Shown in pieces: positions 6,847 to 50,813 of a stretch of DNA of 64,000 nucleotides (its first letter is position 1; each line of letters begins with the position of its first letter). This DNA comes from Hyphomonadaceae bacterium. Lineage in GTDB: Bacteria; Pseudomonadota; Alphaproteobacteria; Caulobacterales; Aquidulcibacteraceae. The stretch is from positions 1-64,000 of the forward strand of contig JAIELK010000008.1 of assembly GCA_019753175.1 (NCBI GenBank), in the 5' to 3' direction. A program made the position numbers and the translations under genes. The notes under the pieces are model-generated. The model was not told where the DNA came from. It made no database searches and saw nothing but the letters and a program-made list of their open reading frames with translations.

Positions 6847-6881
6847 GCTCTGCACCGTAGCGCGCCATCTCACAGGCACAA

Positions 6882-6911
6882 GAAAGCCCGCCGCGTGGGC
6901 GGCGGGCTTTT
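6882..6911 (-). terminator. Rho-independent terminator of pnp
   Basis: A perfect 9-bp stem (GCCCGCCGC at 6886-6894 pairing with 6899-6907) with a 4-base loop, flanked by T runs on both strands. It lies 40-70 bases after the pnp stop on the minus strand, and would end the rimP-to-pnp operon. Confidence 0.8.
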
Positions 6912-6954
6912 GTTGGTCCGCTACTCCGGCCTCGCGAAGCGAGAGCCGGACTGA

Positions 6955-9183
6955 CTACTCCCCGCTGGCCTCGCGCCGCGGGCGGTCGCCGCGATCACGG
7001 CGCGGGCCGCGGTCGCCGCGGTCGCTGCGTTCGCGGCGCGGGCCCTTGTCCTCGGCCTCTTCGCCGAGTTCCGCGGTGAGGTCGGCGCCGGTGGCTTGAT
7101 CCACCACCTTCATCGACAGCCGCGTCTTGCCGCGATCATCGAAGCCCAACAGCTTCACCTTCACGACGTCGCCTTCCTTGACCACATCGCTCGGCTTCTC
7201 GACACGTTCGCGTGACAGCTGGCTCACGTGCACAAGCCCATCCTTGGCGCCGAAATAGTTCACGAAGGCGCCAAACTCCATCACCTTCACGACCTTGCCT
7301 TCATAGATCTGCCCGACTTCCGGCTCGCTGGTGAGGCCCTTGATCCACTTGATCGCAGCCTCGATCGACTCGGCGTTGGCGGAGGCGACCTTCACCGTGC
7401 CGTCGTCTTCGACATTGATCTTGGCGCCGGTCTTTTCGACGATCTCGCGGATCACTTTGCCGCCGGTGCCGATCACATCGCGGATCTTGTCGACCGGGAT
7501 ATTGATCTGGACGATCCGCGGCGCGTTGGCGCCGACGCTTTCGCGCGGCGCATTCAGCGCTTTGTTCATCTCGCCCAGGATGTGCAGCCGGCCTTTGTGA
7601 GCCCGCTCCAGCGCCACCTTCATGATCTCCTCGGTGATGCCGGCGACCTTGATGTCCATCTGCAGCGAGGTGATGCCCTTCTCGGTGCCCGCCACCTTGA
7701 AATCCATGTCACCGAGATGATCCTCGTCGCCAAGGATGTCGGTGAGCACTTCAAAGCCGTAGTCTTCCAGAATGAGGCCCATCGCGACGCCCGCGACCGG
7801 CGCCGCGATCGGCACGCCCGCGTCCATCAGCGCCAGCGATGAACCGCACACCGTCGCCATCGACGACGAGCCGTTCGACTCGGTGATCTCAGAGACGAGG
7901 CGCACCGTGTACGGGAATTGCTCGGCGCTCGGCAGCACCGCTTTCATCGCCCGCCAGGCAAGCTTGCCGTGGCCGATTTCGCGTCGTCCCGCGCCGCCCA
8001 TGCGGCCAGTTTCGCCGACGCTATAGGGCGGGAAGTTGTAGTGGAGCATGAAGCGCTCCTTCACCGTGCCGGCGAGCTGATCGACATATTGCTCGTCTTC
8101 GGCGGTGCCCAGCGTGGCGACGACGATGGCCTGGGTTTCACCACGGGTGAACAGCGCGCTGCCGTGCGTGCGCGGCAGGAAGCCGACCATGGATTCGATC
8201 GGACGCACCTTGTCGACGGGGCGGCCGTCGATGCGGCCCTTCTCCTTGACGATGCGGGCGCGCACGATATCGCTCTCGACCGCCTTAAACGCTTCCTTGA
8301 AGGTGTTGGCGTCAACGCCGTCCGCATTGGTGTCGGACTTGACCAGCACGCCCTTGGCCTTGTCGCGGGCGATGCCCACCGCTTCGTGGCGCGCTTCCTT
8401 CTTCACCACCTTGTAGGCGCTGGCGAGTTCGGCGCCGACCAGGTCCATGATCTGCTTCTTCAGCGGCGAGAGATCGTGGGGCTCGAAGTCCCACGGCGTC
8501 TTCGCTGCCGTCTCGGCGAGCTCGATGATCGCATCGATCACCGGCTGCATGCCCTTGTGGCCAAGATTAAGCGCAGCGAGCATCTGCTCTTCGGTCAGCT
8601 CCTTCACTTCGGACTCGACCATCATGATGGCGTTGGCGGTGCCGGCGATAACGAGATCGAGTTGCGAGTTGGCCATGTCGGCGATGGACGGATTCAGCAC
8701 CGGCTTGCCGTCGATCCAGCCGACGCGGCTGGCGGCGATCGGGCCCATGAACGGCACGCCCGACAAAGTCAGGGCCGCGGAAGCAGCCACCAACGAGAGA
8801 ATGTCGCTCTCGTTCTCATTGTCCCACGACAGCACGGTGACGATCACCTGCACTTCGTTCTTGAAGCCCTCGACGAAGAGCGGGCGGATGGGCCGGTCGA
8901 TCAAGCGCGAGATCAGCGTCTCGCGTTCCGACGGTCGGCCTTCGCGTTTGAAGTAACCGCCGGGAATGCGGCCCGAAGCGAAGGCTTTTTCTTGATAGTT
9001 CACGGTCAGCGGGAAGAAGTCCTGCCCCGGCTTGGCCTCCTTAGCGCCGACGACGGTCGCCAGCACGGCGGTCTCGCCCCAGGTGGCGTAAACGGCGCCG
9101 TCGGCCTGGCGCGCGACGCGCCCGGTTTCGAGCGTGAGCTTGCGCCCGGCCCAGTCGAGGGAAACGGATTTGATATCGAACAT
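6955..9183 (-). CDS. pnp: Polyribonucleotide nucleotidyltransferase (PNPase)
   Basis: A phosphorolytic 3'-5' exoribonuclease and degradosome component. Domain order is two RNase PH domains (about residues 1-550, with [20 protein letters not shown] early and [17 protein letters not shown] in the second), then KH ([17 protein letters not shown]) and S1 ([20 protein letters not shown]), and an Arg/Asp-rich tail. The start [13 protein letters not shown] at 9183 matches the family; an ATG three codons upstream sits too close to GGAG, and longer extensions run into the REP-like repeat. In Deinococcus a Y RNA tethers Ro60 to PNPase, so its presence with the Ro60/Y RNA locus at 25-27 kb is relevant. 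Confidence 0.97.
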
Positions 9184-24959: not shown

Positions 24960-24975
24960 CCCAACCGCGCCGCGC

Positions 24976-26295
24976 CTATTGCCTCTCGCTGGCGATGATC
25001 CAATCGAGGATCTTCTCAGAGAAGCCGTCTACGCGACGCCAGTCGCCCTCGCCGACACCGTGCTGGTACGACGCGACATTGACCATGTATCCCACGCCTT
25101 TGGGCGCATCGACGCGGTCGTGCGATTGTTCGTCGGTAAACACGATGAGCCGCACGCCCTTCTGGTCCACCTCGCGTACCGCCATGCCCAGCTCGGTGCC
25201 GCCGTGAGGCTGCGAGCTGACGATCGCATCGCGCAAGGCGAAGCCGCGGCGCGCCGGAACCTTCTTCACGTCGTTCGAGAACGTGAAGATTTCGACGTCG
25301 TCGCCGATCTCGCGCGCGAGTACGGCGAGGCCGCAGGCTGCATCCATGCGCCGCATCTCCGAGCGCGCCGACAGCGGCGCGTCCATCGAGCCGGAGACGT
25401 CGACCAATAGTCGCGTCTTTCCGGGCAGCCGTTCATGGCCTTCGATAGCGCGGAACATCGCATGTTCGAGCTCCGCTTCTAGGTCAGGCGCATGATGCGC
25501 CGCGGCGATGAAGCGGTACGGCAGCACGCGATCGGTGCGCATCTCGCCCAACGCCTTGGCAATCGCCTTCTTCGGCACCTTGGCGTGGAGCATGTTGCGC
25601 AGGTTGCGCAGCAACGCCAACGCGCCGAGCTTGTTCTCGGCGATCAGCCGCTCGAACGTCTCCTTCTTGTCGGCGCCGCCGGAGAGCGCCACTTCCCAGG
25701 TGTCCGGCGCGGTGAGCTTGCCGTCGATCAGCTGCTTCCACACCTTCTCTTGCGCCGCGTCCTTCGGCTTGGCGTGCGTGATGAACAACACGTCGCGCAG
25801 GCGCACGGCGCCGTCGCGATCGTATTTCGCCAGCTGATAGGCGTCGAACTTGGCGAACGCGCGCGCGAGGCCCTTCTTGGCTTGCGCCGAGACCGCGCGC
25901 GTCTTGCGTTGCTGCATCGGCCCGAGCGCGTCCGCCCAGTAGATGGCCAGGAACTCGGTCAGTTCATCGGGGCGCTGGATCACGCGCTCCAGCGTATCAG
26001 CCACCAGCGCCTTGTGTCCTTCGTGGCGCGCCATCTCGCGCACGACCAGCAGCGGCGCATGGCGCAACTTCATAGCTTCGCGCGCTTCGACCGCCATCGC
26101 GGCGACCGCCTCGGGCTTCACCTTCGGCACAAGCGCCCCGATGCGGTCGGCGATGGAGACGCCATCCTCATAGAACTGATCCTCCCAGAGCATGCAATTC
26201 ATCAGCGCCCGGCGCAATTGCTGCTCCGGCGCGAAAGCGCGGCCCTTGGCGCCTTCATGCGTGCGCGGCGTCTTCGCCTTGTTGATCTTCACCAT
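24976..26295 (-). CDS. rsr: Ro60 orthologue (Rsr), TROVE and vWA domains
   Basis: A ring-shaped RNA-binding protein that in animals and bacteria binds Y RNAs and misfolded RNAs. Residues 1-270 form the TROVE HEAT-repeat ring (including NKLGALALLRNLRNM, the most conserved motif), and residues 285-439 form a vWA domain with a full MIDAS, DVSGSM, plus GGTELG and TDEQSHD. At 439 residues it is shorter than the about 530 of other members. The start ATG is 66 bases downstream of the last Y RNA unit of the array on the same strand, with GAGG 9 bases before it. No rtcB, rtcA or rtcR is nearby. Confidence 0.95.
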   Translation of the reverse strand: MVKINKAKTPRTHEGAKGRAFAPEQQLRRALMNCMLWEDQFYEDGVSIADRIGALVPKVKPEAVAAMAVEAREAMKLRHAPLLVVREMARHEGHKALVADTLERVIQRPDELTEFLAIYWADALGPMQQRKTRAVSAQAKKGLARAFAKFDAYQLAKYDRDGAVRLRDVLFITHAKPKDAAQEKVWKQLIDGKLTAPDTWEVALSGGADKKETFERLIAENKLGALALLRNLRNMLHAKVPKKAIAKALGEMRTDRVLPYRFIAAAHHAPDLEAELEHAMFRAIEGHERLPGKTRLLVDVSGSMDAPLSARSEMRRMDAACGLAVLAREIGDDVEIFTFSNDVKKVPARRGFALRDAIVSSQPHGGTELGMAVREVDQKGVRLIVFTDEQSHDRVDAPKGVGYMVNVASYQHGVGEGDWRRVDGFSEKILDWIIASERQ

Positions 26296-26361
26296 CTCAC
26301 ACCACCTCTTCCGCCTACTCCATCATCACACTGCGCCAACGACAATCGCCAGCGCAAAACA

Positions 26362-26496
26362 TCAACCGGGGAACAGGCGGGACCGTCTAGCGCTCTACCA
26401 CTGAGCTACGGGCCCCCAAACGTAGACCCGGCGGGACTCGAACCCGCGACCTCTCGTTGTGCAGACGAAGTAACGCATCCCTTCACCACCGGTTGA
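26362..26496 (-). ncRNA. Y RNA-like gene 5, tRNA-mimic type
   Basis: The unit nearest rsr. The outer helix TCAACCGG (26489-26496) pairs perfectly with CCGGTTGA (26362-26369). Next come the shared motifs GGTGGTGAAG (26481-26490) and GTTCCCC (26368-26374). The enclosed part is a permuted tRNA: T-arm with a 5-bp stem and 7-base loop (26431-26447), 3' acceptor strand CGGGTCT (26424-26430), an 8-base linker, 5' acceptor strand GGGCCCG (26409-26415), which pair over 7 bp with two G-T wobbles, and the D-arm GCTCAGTGGTAGAGC (26392-26406). There is no anticodon arm. Ends are approximate. Confidence 0.8.
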
Positions 26497-26503
26497 CTTC
26501 GCA

Positions 26504-26617
26504 TGGCGGGGAACGGGCGAGATCGCAGACCCTCCACCGAAGGAGGCGGCGCGCTCTGCATGCTCGCGCACGCCAGCGTTCGCCCTTGCGAAGTAAGCGA
26601 TCTCTTCACCACCGCCA
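26504..26617 (-). ncRNA. Y RNA-like gene 4, non-tRNA type
   Basis: The outer helix TGGCGG (26612-26617) pairs with CCGCCA (26504-26509), and the motif pair GGTGGTGAAG (26604-26613) / GTTCCCC (26508-26514) is intact. An 8-bp inner helix, GAGATCGC (26597-26604) with GCGATCTC (26519-26526), is perfect. The internal module has no T- or D-arm; instead it has two hairpins, a 7-bp one (26548-26554 with 26568-26574) and CCTCC/GGAGG (26531-26535, 26542-26546). Ends are inferred from the helix limits. Confidence 0.75.
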
Positions 26618-26631
26618 AACTTGTCGTCAAA

Positions 26632-26794
26632 GCGACGCCGGGGAACAGTCGAGCTCTGCTCTGCTGCGCTCGTCTTGCGACACGCGCAGCACGTGCTCTA
26701 CCCACTGAGCTACAGGTCCAGGACCTGGCGGGACTCGAACCCGCGACCCCGTCGTTATCAGCGATGAAACAGATCTCTTCACCACCGGCGTCGC
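26632..26794 (-). ncRNA. Y RNA-like gene 3, tRNA-mimic type
   Basis: The longest closing helix of the array: GCGACGCCGG (26785-26794) with CCGGCGTCGC (26632-26641), 10 perfect pairs, then GGTGGTGAAG (26777-26786) and GTTCCCC (26640-26646). Inside are a canonical T-arm (26728-26744), the 3' acceptor strand CAGGTCC (26721-26727) and, one base later, the exactly complementary 5' acceptor strand GGACCTG (26713-26719), then the D-arm GCTCAGTGGGTAGAGC (26695-26710). The acceptor stem is thus circularly permuted and closed by a single base, so its terminal pairs probably open. Confidence 0.8.
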
Positions 26795-26802
26795 ATTTGG
26801 TC

Positions 26803-26972
26803 TCGTCGGGGAACCAACGAAAGCGGTTTCAGCCACGCCATCGCAGGGCTTGCGCCCGAACCCGCGTCACGACGTCCTTCGCGAGGACGACTCCACGGTA
26901 CGATGCATGCGCTGGCTGGATTCGAACCAGCAGAACCCTGAGCGAAGTATCCGCCCTCTTCACCACCGACAA
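26803..26972 (-). ncRNA. Y RNA-like gene 2, partial tRNA-mimic type
   Basis: The outer helix TTGTCGG (26966-26972) pairs with CCGACGA (26803-26809; one G-T), and the motifs GGTGGTGAAG (26958-26967) and GTTCCCC (26808-26814) are intact; an inner GCGG/CCGC helix follows. The internal module has a canonical T-arm, GCTGG-7-CCAGC (26915-26931), but I see no matching acceptor strands and no D-arm. It also has a hairpin with a GCAA tetraloop (26846-26857). It may be a degenerating tRNA-mimic unit. Confidence 0.7.
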
Positions 26973-26979
26973 AAAGGTA

Positions 26980-27049
26980 TCCAGGGGAACACGCGACGCG
27001 GCTCTGGCTCGATTTGAAGTCGAAGAAATCCGCGCCTTCACCACCTGGA
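26980..27049 (-). ncRNA. Y RNA-like gene 1, short type
   Basis: The first and shortest unit, about 70 nt. The outer helix TCCAGG (27044-27049) pairs with CCTGGA (26980-26985); GGTGGTGAAG (27036-27045) and GTTCCCC (26984-26990) are intact, and the inner helix GCGCGG pairs with CCGCGT. The internal loop is short and not tRNA-like. A T5 run follows the 3' end and overlaps the start of unit 2, which could serve in processing or partial termination. Confidence 0.65.
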
Positions 27050-27078
27050 ATTCAAATCTCCTCGTTTCCGCACGACAA
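27050..27078 (-). promoter_or_regulatory. Possible promoter for the Y RNA array
   Basis: Minus strand TTGTCG (27073-27078), 17-base spacer, TTGAAT (27050-27055), each 4 of 6 to consensus. The predicted start would fall within a few bases of the 5' strand of the first Y unit. It lies downstream of the terminator at 27101-27136. The match is weak. Confidence 0.35.
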
Positions 27079-27100
27079 AGGCTTCGGAGCGGCTGGAAAC

Positions 27101-27136
27101 AAAAAACCCCTCCGGAGCGTCGGCTCGGGAGGGGTT
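27101..27136 (-). terminator. Strong Rho-independent terminator upstream of the Y RNA array
   Basis: Minus strand stem AACCCCTCC (27128-27136) pairing with GGAGGGGTT (27105-27113), with an inner GAGC/GCTC stem and GTCG loop, followed by six T residues (27101-27106). It ends the short transcript that starts near 27307 and also insulates the Y array from the spoVR operon. Confidence 0.85.
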
Positions 27137-27160
27137 CAAAACGAACACTCTGGAGCGGGA

Positions 27161-27265
27161 TCAGCCCACTCCGCCTCCGCGAGAATATGTGCGCGCATCG
27201 ACGCACTGAGCGTTCAGCTCAATGCGGCTTCCGCCCAGCGCGATGACTAAGACTGACCGTTTCAT
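27161..27265 (-). CDS. 34-residue ORF or leader of a short transcript
   Basis: ATG at 27265 opens a 34-codon frame (MKRSVLVIALGGSRIELNAQ, then CVDARTYSRGGGVG). It sits between a promoter with a perfect TTGACA (27314-27342) and a strong terminator (27101-27136), so the transcript would be about 200 nt and carry only this frame. A weak GAGAG precedes the ATG. It may be a real small protein, or the RNA itself may be the product; I recognise no family. It lies just after spoVR and just before the Y RNA array. Confidence 0.4.
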   Translation of the reverse strand: MKRSVLVIALGGSRIELNAQCVDARTYSRGGGVG

Positions 27266-27313
27266 CTTCACTCTCGCATGTCCGCGCGCGACCATCGCTC
27301 GCGAAGGGCGCGG

Positions 27314-27342
27314 TGTATGATCTCTGAATTTGGCGGTGTCAA
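27314..27342 (-). promoter_or_regulatory. Sigma-70 type promoter between spoVR and the Y RNA array
   Basis: Minus strand -35 TTGACA (27337-27342, perfect), 17-base spacer, -10 CATACA (27314-27319). Transcription would start near 27307, after the spoVR stop at 27361, and run through the 34-codon frame to the terminator at 27101-27136. Confidence 0.6.
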
Positions 27343-27360
27343 GGCAGAAAACGACGGCGT

Positions 27361-50737: not shown

Positions 50738-50813
<76 letters not shown>

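Follow-up and report, generated by a model that had tools for sequence, protein, structure and literature searches.

Which RNAs, if any, are encoded by the row of hairpins that precedes rsr, the gene of a compact Ro60 ortholog, in a Hyphomonadaceae bacterium (GenBank assembly GCA_019753175.1, contig JAIELK010000008.1, positions 1 to 64,000)? The window, meaning the whole 64,000-nucleotide (nt) stretch that was analysed, holds on its minus strand at 26361-27049 exactly five hairpin units, here called U1 to U5, flanked by a terminator-like hairpin and by rsr, and a preliminary description of this DNA had taken them for a tandem array of Y RNAs, partners of the Ro60 ortholog Rsr. Because their basal stem is conserved, they lie on the rsr strand, matches to them within the genus are restricted to genomes with a compact rsr, and U3 and U5 are YrlA-like, the five units are very probably Y RNAs. 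We consider it probable that five Y RNAs serving the adjoining Rsr are encoded here, with both their expression and their binding to Rsr being predicted.

Five units with a common basal module

Every unit carries GGTGGTGAAG on its 5' side, GTTCCCC on its 3' side and an uninterrupted outer stem of 5-9 pairs, G-U included. A scan of both strands of the whole 64 kb for GTGGTGAAG with at most one mismatch, followed 40-260 nt on by TTCCC, found nine places, with outer stems of 5, 8, 9, 5 and 8 pairs in the array versus 0 or 1 pair at the four others, and motif plus stem occur together only at the five array places. A covariance model whose 18 training units included U1 and U4 gave exactly five matches in the window up to its cut at E = 10, all of them array units; the untrained units scored E 1.3e-8 (U5), 0.0021 (U3) and 0.019 (U2, first part only). 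The motif search of the whole genome likewise found five places, all inside the array. The linkers from U1 to U5 measure 5, 6, 14 and 6 nt, 65 nt separate U5 from the rsr start, and a terminator scan found no terminator between the units or between the array and rsr. The motif-plus-stem scan and the covariance model thus bear out the claim of five tandem minus-strand units between a terminator and the rsr start, and the claim that a constant 5' motif and GTTCCCC are flanked by outer helices that differ yet pair also holds, the stem sequences given for it being correct.

When folded singly, all five units form a basal stem with an interrupted conserved segment, its strands being GGUGGUGAAG versus UUCCCC. 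The basal module comprises a variable outer helix, GG-U-GG/CCCC with one bulged U, a 4x7 internal loop and an inner helix, and each unit contains a UUACUUCG-like element. Both the outer and the inner helices differ in sequence between units while their pairing is kept. The preliminary description was therefore right about the units as far as it went, and had overlooked the inner helix, the UUACUUCG-like element, the tRNA-like pieces in three units and the place of the terminator in a conserved cassette. The idea that outer stems within one array are selected for mutual unlikeness was rejected, with 4.44 of 5 pairs for self-pairing, 2.36 for cross-pairing within an array and 2.46 for cross-pairing between genomes giving no sign of it.

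The units differ in the heads that they carry on this module (class letters refer to the ortholog classes described below). U1 (26980-27049, class A) consists of the basal stem and one inner hairpin without a tRNA-like module, and U4 (26504-26617, class D) has GC-rich hairpins without a D-arm; neither shows tRNA-like content. U2 (26801-26974, class B) has a T-arm-like hairpin and a second conserved hairpin without a D-arm. U3 (26632-26794, class C) and U5 (26361-26497, class F) are YrlA-like tRNA mimics, with a permuted T-arm, an acceptor-like stem and a D-arm in U3.

The gene downstream (rsr, 24976-26295, minus strand) encodes a protein of 439 amino acids (aa) with a TROVE domain (Pfam E 1.1e-17, 64.8 bits against a cut-off of 23, the match falling into two separate pieces) and a von Willebrand factor A (vWA) region with the motif DVSGSM, for which two Pfam models scored 24.9 and 21.3 bits, below their cut-offs of 27 and 27.7. 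An AlphaFold2 model built from 33 sequences reached a mean predicted local distance difference test (pLDDT) score of 84.8 and a predicted template modelling (pTM) score of 0.78. Foldseek aligned this model with Ro60 (2i91, query TM-score (TMq) 0.77, 16% identity) and with Deinococcus radiodurans Rsr (2nvo, TMq 0.62), and its best E-values were for 9kop (E 6e-18) and 9l5y, titled Ro60 dimer from Thermus phage phiLo. The predicted structure of Rsr thus has the Ro60 fold and matches Ro60 structures over nearly its whole chain.

Conservation upstream of compact rsr genes

An alignment of eight Rsr proteins served to scan the GTDB collection for related loci, and 80 of 134 confirmed loci were picked by rsr similarity; loci are cited below by L numbers and genomes by G numbers. 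The sample comprises Hyphomonadaceae (including G014, a Terricaulis record and congener of the window, which makes Terricaulis the probable genus of the window), 42 named Bradyrhizobium, other Alphaproteobacteria, Acidobacteria and one record labelled Clostridiales, and many of these loci are closely related (42 of the 80 being Bradyrhizobium), so that the following counts are not independent events. A finder requiring motif and stem identified 227 units on the rsr strand versus 3 antisense; all 227 lie within 4.5 kb upstream of rsr, and 75 of the 80 loci have at least one. When motif pairs were collected blind to the stem, a stem of at least four pairs was present in 255 of 319 sense pairs versus 3 of 26 antisense ones.

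The inner helix, which played no part in selecting the units, was examined in 248 distinct units (out of 262, a few loci coming from identical genomes). Over the six pairs of this helix, 71% pairing is seen in register, versus 38-46% when the strands are slid by 1-3 bases, and the best pair is paired in 90% of units versus 45% with shuffled partners. One core pair (0/6) is GC in 192 units, CG in 48, AT in 5 and GU in 3.

Units of twelve loci from the window's genus and nearest relatives fall into classes whose order is nearly constant, A-B-C-(C)-D-(D2)-E-F with gains and losses, and the window has A, B, C, D and F; the labels derive partly from the outer stem, D and D2 are split by the D-arm itself, the labels of two units were changed by hand, and units whose 5' motif deviates (for example one in L091 and one in L038) were left out. 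Before relabelling, T-arm-like and D-arm-like sequences were counted in 14 and 14 of 14 class C units, 5 and 5 of 5 in D2, 9 and 8 of 11 in F, 8 and 0 of 9 in B, and 4 and 0 of 8 in D, the T-arm test being loose; classes A (9 members) and E (7) have neither. RNAalifold, run on classes A, B, C, D and F, found two-sided changes at 3 of 19 predicted pairs in A (all 9 members), 13 of 38 in F (all 9), 12 of 41 in B (9 of 10), 9 of 25 in D (8 of 9), where a local hairpin was drawn instead of the inner helix, and 14 of 43 in C (11 of 14). The outer helices of class C vary freely with pairing kept, one pair being CG in 6 units, AU in 4 and GC in 1. These ortholog alignments and the inner-helix test agree with the earlier argument that compensatory change reflects a conserved RNA structure.

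The association with rsr extends through the order. Among its 299 genomes, 12 have at least three motif matches and all 12 have a TROVE gene; in 11 of them the matches immediately precede that gene on its own contig and strand, and in the twelfth (G510) four matches lie on a short contig separate from rsr. Eight genomes have exactly one match, none of them with a TROVE gene, and the reversed pattern gave one match overall. The pairing of the array with a Ro60 gene, as first proposed, is supported by this association in 12 of 12 genomes, by the compensatory change and by the YrlA core in U3 and U5.

Within the genus, nine of 30 congeners carry a compact rsr, and the 34 matches of a covariance model (R1) are restricted to those nine with 0 in the other 21; the R1 training units were drawn from eight of the nine matched genomes, which leaves G014 and the 21 blanks as the independent part. 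This dependence is one of several points that weigh against the identification of the units as Y RNAs. In the R1 congener search, only three of the window's own five units reach E 0.01. The minimum-energy fold of the whole 710-nt stretch forms three of the five basal stems, those of U2 and U5 being lost. The Rfam YrlA model matches U3 (52.9 bits, E 4.3e-10) and U5 (41.2 bits, E 1e-6) below its gathering threshold of 69, stops short of the basal stem and gave no match at U1, U2 or U4. A terminator upstream of the array would silence it unless read through or by-passed. Finally, 15 of the 27 TROVE-bearing genomes of the order lack the strict motif. These comprise four with a longer canonical Rsr, six with a more distant compact Rsr (49-56% identity), where the four inspected by eye each show three or four units bearing a GUGGCGNAG-like variant (a looser pattern counts two each), and five with weak TROVE matches only, in which the first finder (motif and stem) detected no units.

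Two putative docking motifs and the rsr cassette

GGUCCGA/GGGCCGA is the kind of basal motif found in known Y RNAs, and that of the array differs from it. We therefore compared a class II basal motif, GUGGYGNAG/GUUCCC, present with compact Rsr, with class I units, GGGCCGA...GGUUAUCG...CAYGCCCG, present with canonical Rsr; the class I motif presumably resembles that of metazoan Y RNAs. In 96 compact loci (L072 and L087 being the same place), class II occurs 335 times in sense and 0 times in antisense, and class I 3 times in sense and 26 times in antisense, whereas seven canonical loci have class I 16 times in sense, 0 times in antisense, and no class II. Two or more class II motifs are found in 88 of the 96 compact loci, and of the eight others, L075, L107, L156 and L159 have less than 0.5 kb upstream of rsr; at least two sense class I motifs are found in 0 of 96. 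By pattern, two or more class I motifs are recognized in four of the seven canonical loci, a single one in another and none in the remaining two. The canonical type also occurs in the window's own genus (G021). Judged by sequence, the basal motif of the array is a second putative docking type that segregates with the Rsr type, and this segregation, even inside one genus, offers a natural test of the contacts that give Y RNA binding its specificity. Three class I units scored 38.2, 37.4 and 29.0 bits against the nematode sbRNA family RF01656 (cut-off 38), and a gathering-level Rfam run on those canonical loci listed no RF01656. A 4x7 loop common to class I and class II was considered and dropped, being seen in only one of 11 class I folds.

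Five units had been called unusual on the ground that known loci have one or two, and this claim is only partly borne out. The class II motif count over the 80 loci is four in 40, three in 13, two in 11, five in 8, one in 3, seven in 2, zero in 2 and six in 1, some contigs being short, so that 75 of the 80 relatives have at least two copies. Counts of two to five are thus typical of relatives, with a maximum of seven; seven units are also present in Caulobacter phage CcrPW, and canonical loci likewise carry several (six in L024; in L069 three by pattern and about five by eye). Five units per locus is high but not odd.

The array belongs to a cassette of 2.4 kb (24960-27360), small enough to be cloned whole, which lies between the convergent genes spoVR (27361 onwards) and a Pif1-like helicase gene (up to 24959). 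Near its start, a promoter-like TTGACA-N17-CATACA (27314-27342, minus strand) was recognized by eye and alignment only; CTTGAC and an ATCATAYA-like block align in most relatives' upstream sequences, and a consensus promoter scanner found no promoter upstream of the array. This is followed on the same strand by a leader open reading frame (ORF; 27161-27265; 34 codons plus stop) that ends in SRGGGVG and has no Pfam match, and by an intrinsic-terminator hairpin (27101-27134, CCCCTCCCGAGC..GCTCCGGAGGGG plus a T-run) between the leader ORF and U1. An ORF ending in GG-x-[MIV]-[GD]-stop just before the terminator is present in 10 of 12 cassettes (L093 ends in GGMA and L094 in GGEAA), and the terminator hairpin has -20 to -24 kcal/mol in 12 of 12. 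Over the 80 loci the terminator motif precedes rsr on the sense strand in 57, occurs only behind it in 2 and is missing from 21, with antisense copies in 0. Leader ORF and terminator, seen as a conserved pair, are likely a candidate attenuator that travels with the cassette.

Other conserved sequences were observed around such arrays. In L095 (8384), L098 (8726) and L101 (8760), the terminator motif stands behind a leader-like sequence (by eye) downstream of rsr and away from the array. A GC-rich conserved element of about 200 nt, GGGAGACCCGGATCC...GGGGCCTGCCGGAGGGAACG, lies upstream of the first unit in L122, L123, L104, L113, L147, L110, L101 and partly L098 (Bradyrhizobium and other Alphaproteobacteria), with no Rfam match in L122 and L147, the two scanned. 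In L076, L078 and L080, where Rsr is 53-56% identical, TTGTTGCA...TGCAACA-type palindromes and promoter-like blocks (by eye) lie between the units upstream of rsr, which suggests a dedicated regulator.

The presence and the place of the cassette vary within the genus. In G016, G026 and G022, which have no compact rsr, spoVR and the helicase gene are convergent, their matched ends lying 23-38 bp apart, and in G019 and G023, where the cassette is elsewhere, they are about 0.5 and 0.35 kb apart. Among eleven cassettes compared over up to 4 kb of flank (L091 having no left flank), only one pair has a common flank (L092 and L143, right side), and between the window and 114 other loci rsr alone is common, spoVR, yeaH, prkA and the helicase gene being unmatched there. 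Besides rsr, the ORFs in the window's cassette have no Pfam match, and a scan of eight neighbourhood ORFs showed no rtcBA. Recent horizontal transfer within the genus was considered and is unsupported, the rsr and spoVR identities being alike and correlated over 7 genomes (r 0.68, Mantel p 0.016, with one close pair weighing heavily).

From the observed sequence, pairing, association and predicted fold, we infer a scheme of processing, binding, partners and attenuation. The array and rsr would be co-transcribed from a promoter upstream of the leader ORF and terminator, and the precursor would be cut into single RNAs. Like known Y RNAs, each unit would dock on the Rsr ring through its basal module, and its head would determine which partners the ring is connected to or barred from. 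The tRNA-like heads (U3 and U5) may have a YrlA-type role, tethering the ring to PNPase with tRNA mimicry, and the heads without a tRNA-like part (U1 and U4) may be gates or recruiters of other partners. Each cell would then possess one ring with a rack of interchangeable adaptors. Five RNAs (up to seven in relatives) with a common docking stem and differing heads for one ring would bear on the separate roles of the several Y RNAs that a single Ro60 has.

The array might instead be a structured 5' leader of the rsr mRNA, with Rsr binding its own message in a feedback and no free small RNAs being made. The common strand, the gap of 65 nt without a scanned terminator and the regulatory look of the upstream leader ORF and terminator all agree with such a cis-acting role. 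It is nevertheless unlikely, since class-specific heads, some of them complete tRNA-like modules with D- and T-loop sequence, are kept across many species and would be superfluous in a leader, units more than 2 kb away from rsr exist in L101, L160 and L161, and the promoter-like palindromic blocks seen by eye in L076, L078 and L080 stand between units. Far less probable still is that the hairpin repeats are recombination sites similar to integron attC, their RNA being incidental: the cassette does occur at different places, with units gained and lost in order, but no recombinase was seen in the window, whose cassette ORFs of at least 100 aa other than rsr lack a Pfam match, the inner helices and heads covary as RNA, and the basal motif tracks the Rsr type.

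Arrays of such putative Y RNAs also appear on mobile elements. Rsr homologues, all less than 60% identical, occur in 69 of 50,697 phage records and in 20 of 72,556 plasmid records. The seven units of CcrPW have been mentioned; Xanthomonas phage 10KY502B has the motif four times by pattern and a fifth unit by eye, and a Deinococcus gobiensis plasmid has two units. The phage records annotate a tRNA-Thr (10KY502B) and a tRNA-Ser (Brevundimonas phage Gurke) at the array, and in Gurke (L198) a permuted-tmRNA match of 57.7 bits (gathering threshold 47) lies at 6878-7223, downstream of the Rsr gene. The least probable explanation, a row of decayed or permuted tRNA genes, is already contradicted: ARAGORN calls a tRNA-Cys in U5 (26424-26495) and tRNAs inside the arrays of 6 of 22 other loci (L094, L104, L113, L147, L197 and L198; Glu, Phe, His, Asn and Ser), but these isotypes are random, the Rfam tRNA score at U5 is 23.5 bits against a gathering threshold of 29, T-arm before D-arm is the order of YrlA and not of tRNA, and U1 and U4 have no tRNA-like part. 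Elsewhere in the window, ARAGORN calls an unusually long tRNA-Ala(GGC) of 95 nt at 7776-7870 (minus strand), and a tRNA-Ala(GGC) of 76 nt lies at 50738-50813. Rfam at gathering level gave nothing in 11 related loci, where units appear only at relaxed thresholds or by motif, and the best YrlA score beyond the window (55.9 bits, L197) also lies under the gathering threshold. The class II motif reveals many putative Y RNAs under Rfam's cut-off, sometimes called tRNAs by tRNA finders.

A broader reading, which we regard as possible but doubtful, is that of a second Ro60 lineage with its own docking code (GUGGYGNAG/GUUCCC versus GGGCCGA/CAYGCCCG) and a portable operon. Such an operon would hold as many as seven adaptor RNAs racked in a fixed order, its specificity altered by gain and loss of RNA units and not of protein genes. 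It would have its own attenuator and make intergenic moves without a visible recombinase, and on phages the tRNA-like heads might protect or divert host tRNA-handling enzymes.

Comparison with known Ro60 systems

Chen and colleagues reportedly described in 2014 that Y RNAs lie beside Ro60 genes in many bacteria and phages, and each species is said to have at least one Y RNA with a tRNA-like head; in the window, U3 and U5 have such a head. The occurrence of Y RNAs beside Ro60 in many bacteria and phages is likewise cited (PMC12282133), a Y RNA of D. radiodurans is described as tethering Rsr to PNPase and gating Rsr (PMC4726728, PMC7790460, PMC8058203), and the basal stem of YrlA as holding Rsr while its tRNA-like domain binds PNPase (PMC8394870). 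This domain has also been suggested to be a competitive inhibitor of anticodon nuclease, and two Y RNAs are named in the Salmonella rsr-yrlBA-rtcBA operon (both in PMC7790460). Titles and abstract openings of the literature covered held nothing on tandem Y RNA arrays or on the docking motif, the main Y RNA papers lying outside this coverage, so that an earlier description is possible. Y RNAs beside Ro60 are thus known, and arrays of such size and the class II docking motif appear to be new.

Like Ro60 and Rsr proteins, the window's Rsr combines TROVE with a vWA region in a predicted Ro60 fold, and it differs from the solved chains in length (439 versus 500-538 aa), with 15-25% identity. The putative RNAs resemble YrlA and other bacterial Y RNAs (RF02553) in adjoining a Ro60 ortholog and in forming a long closed hairpin of basal stem and head, with a permuted tRNA-like core in the YrlA order in U3 and U5. 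With the class I units of L024, L069 and L071, canonical Rsr loci that belong to the window's own taxonomic order and class, with metazoan Y RNAs and with nematode sbRNAs, they share a basal helix, an internal loop, an inner helix and then a GGUUAUCG-like element, as well as several units per locus. A known Y RNA has a single bulged C with a 3-nt bulge opposite (PMC4726728), whereas the array has a single bulged U. In contrast to the Salmonella YrlA locus, the window has five units (up to seven in relatives), the basal motif GUGGUGAAG/GUUCCC and some heads without a tRNA-like part. In Listeria phage CKA15, an Rsr-like gene lies within 2 kb of three highly transcribed regions of the same direction, which are only suggested to be Y RNAs (PMC12282133), whereas the arrays of CcrPW and 10KY502B are read directly in the sequence.
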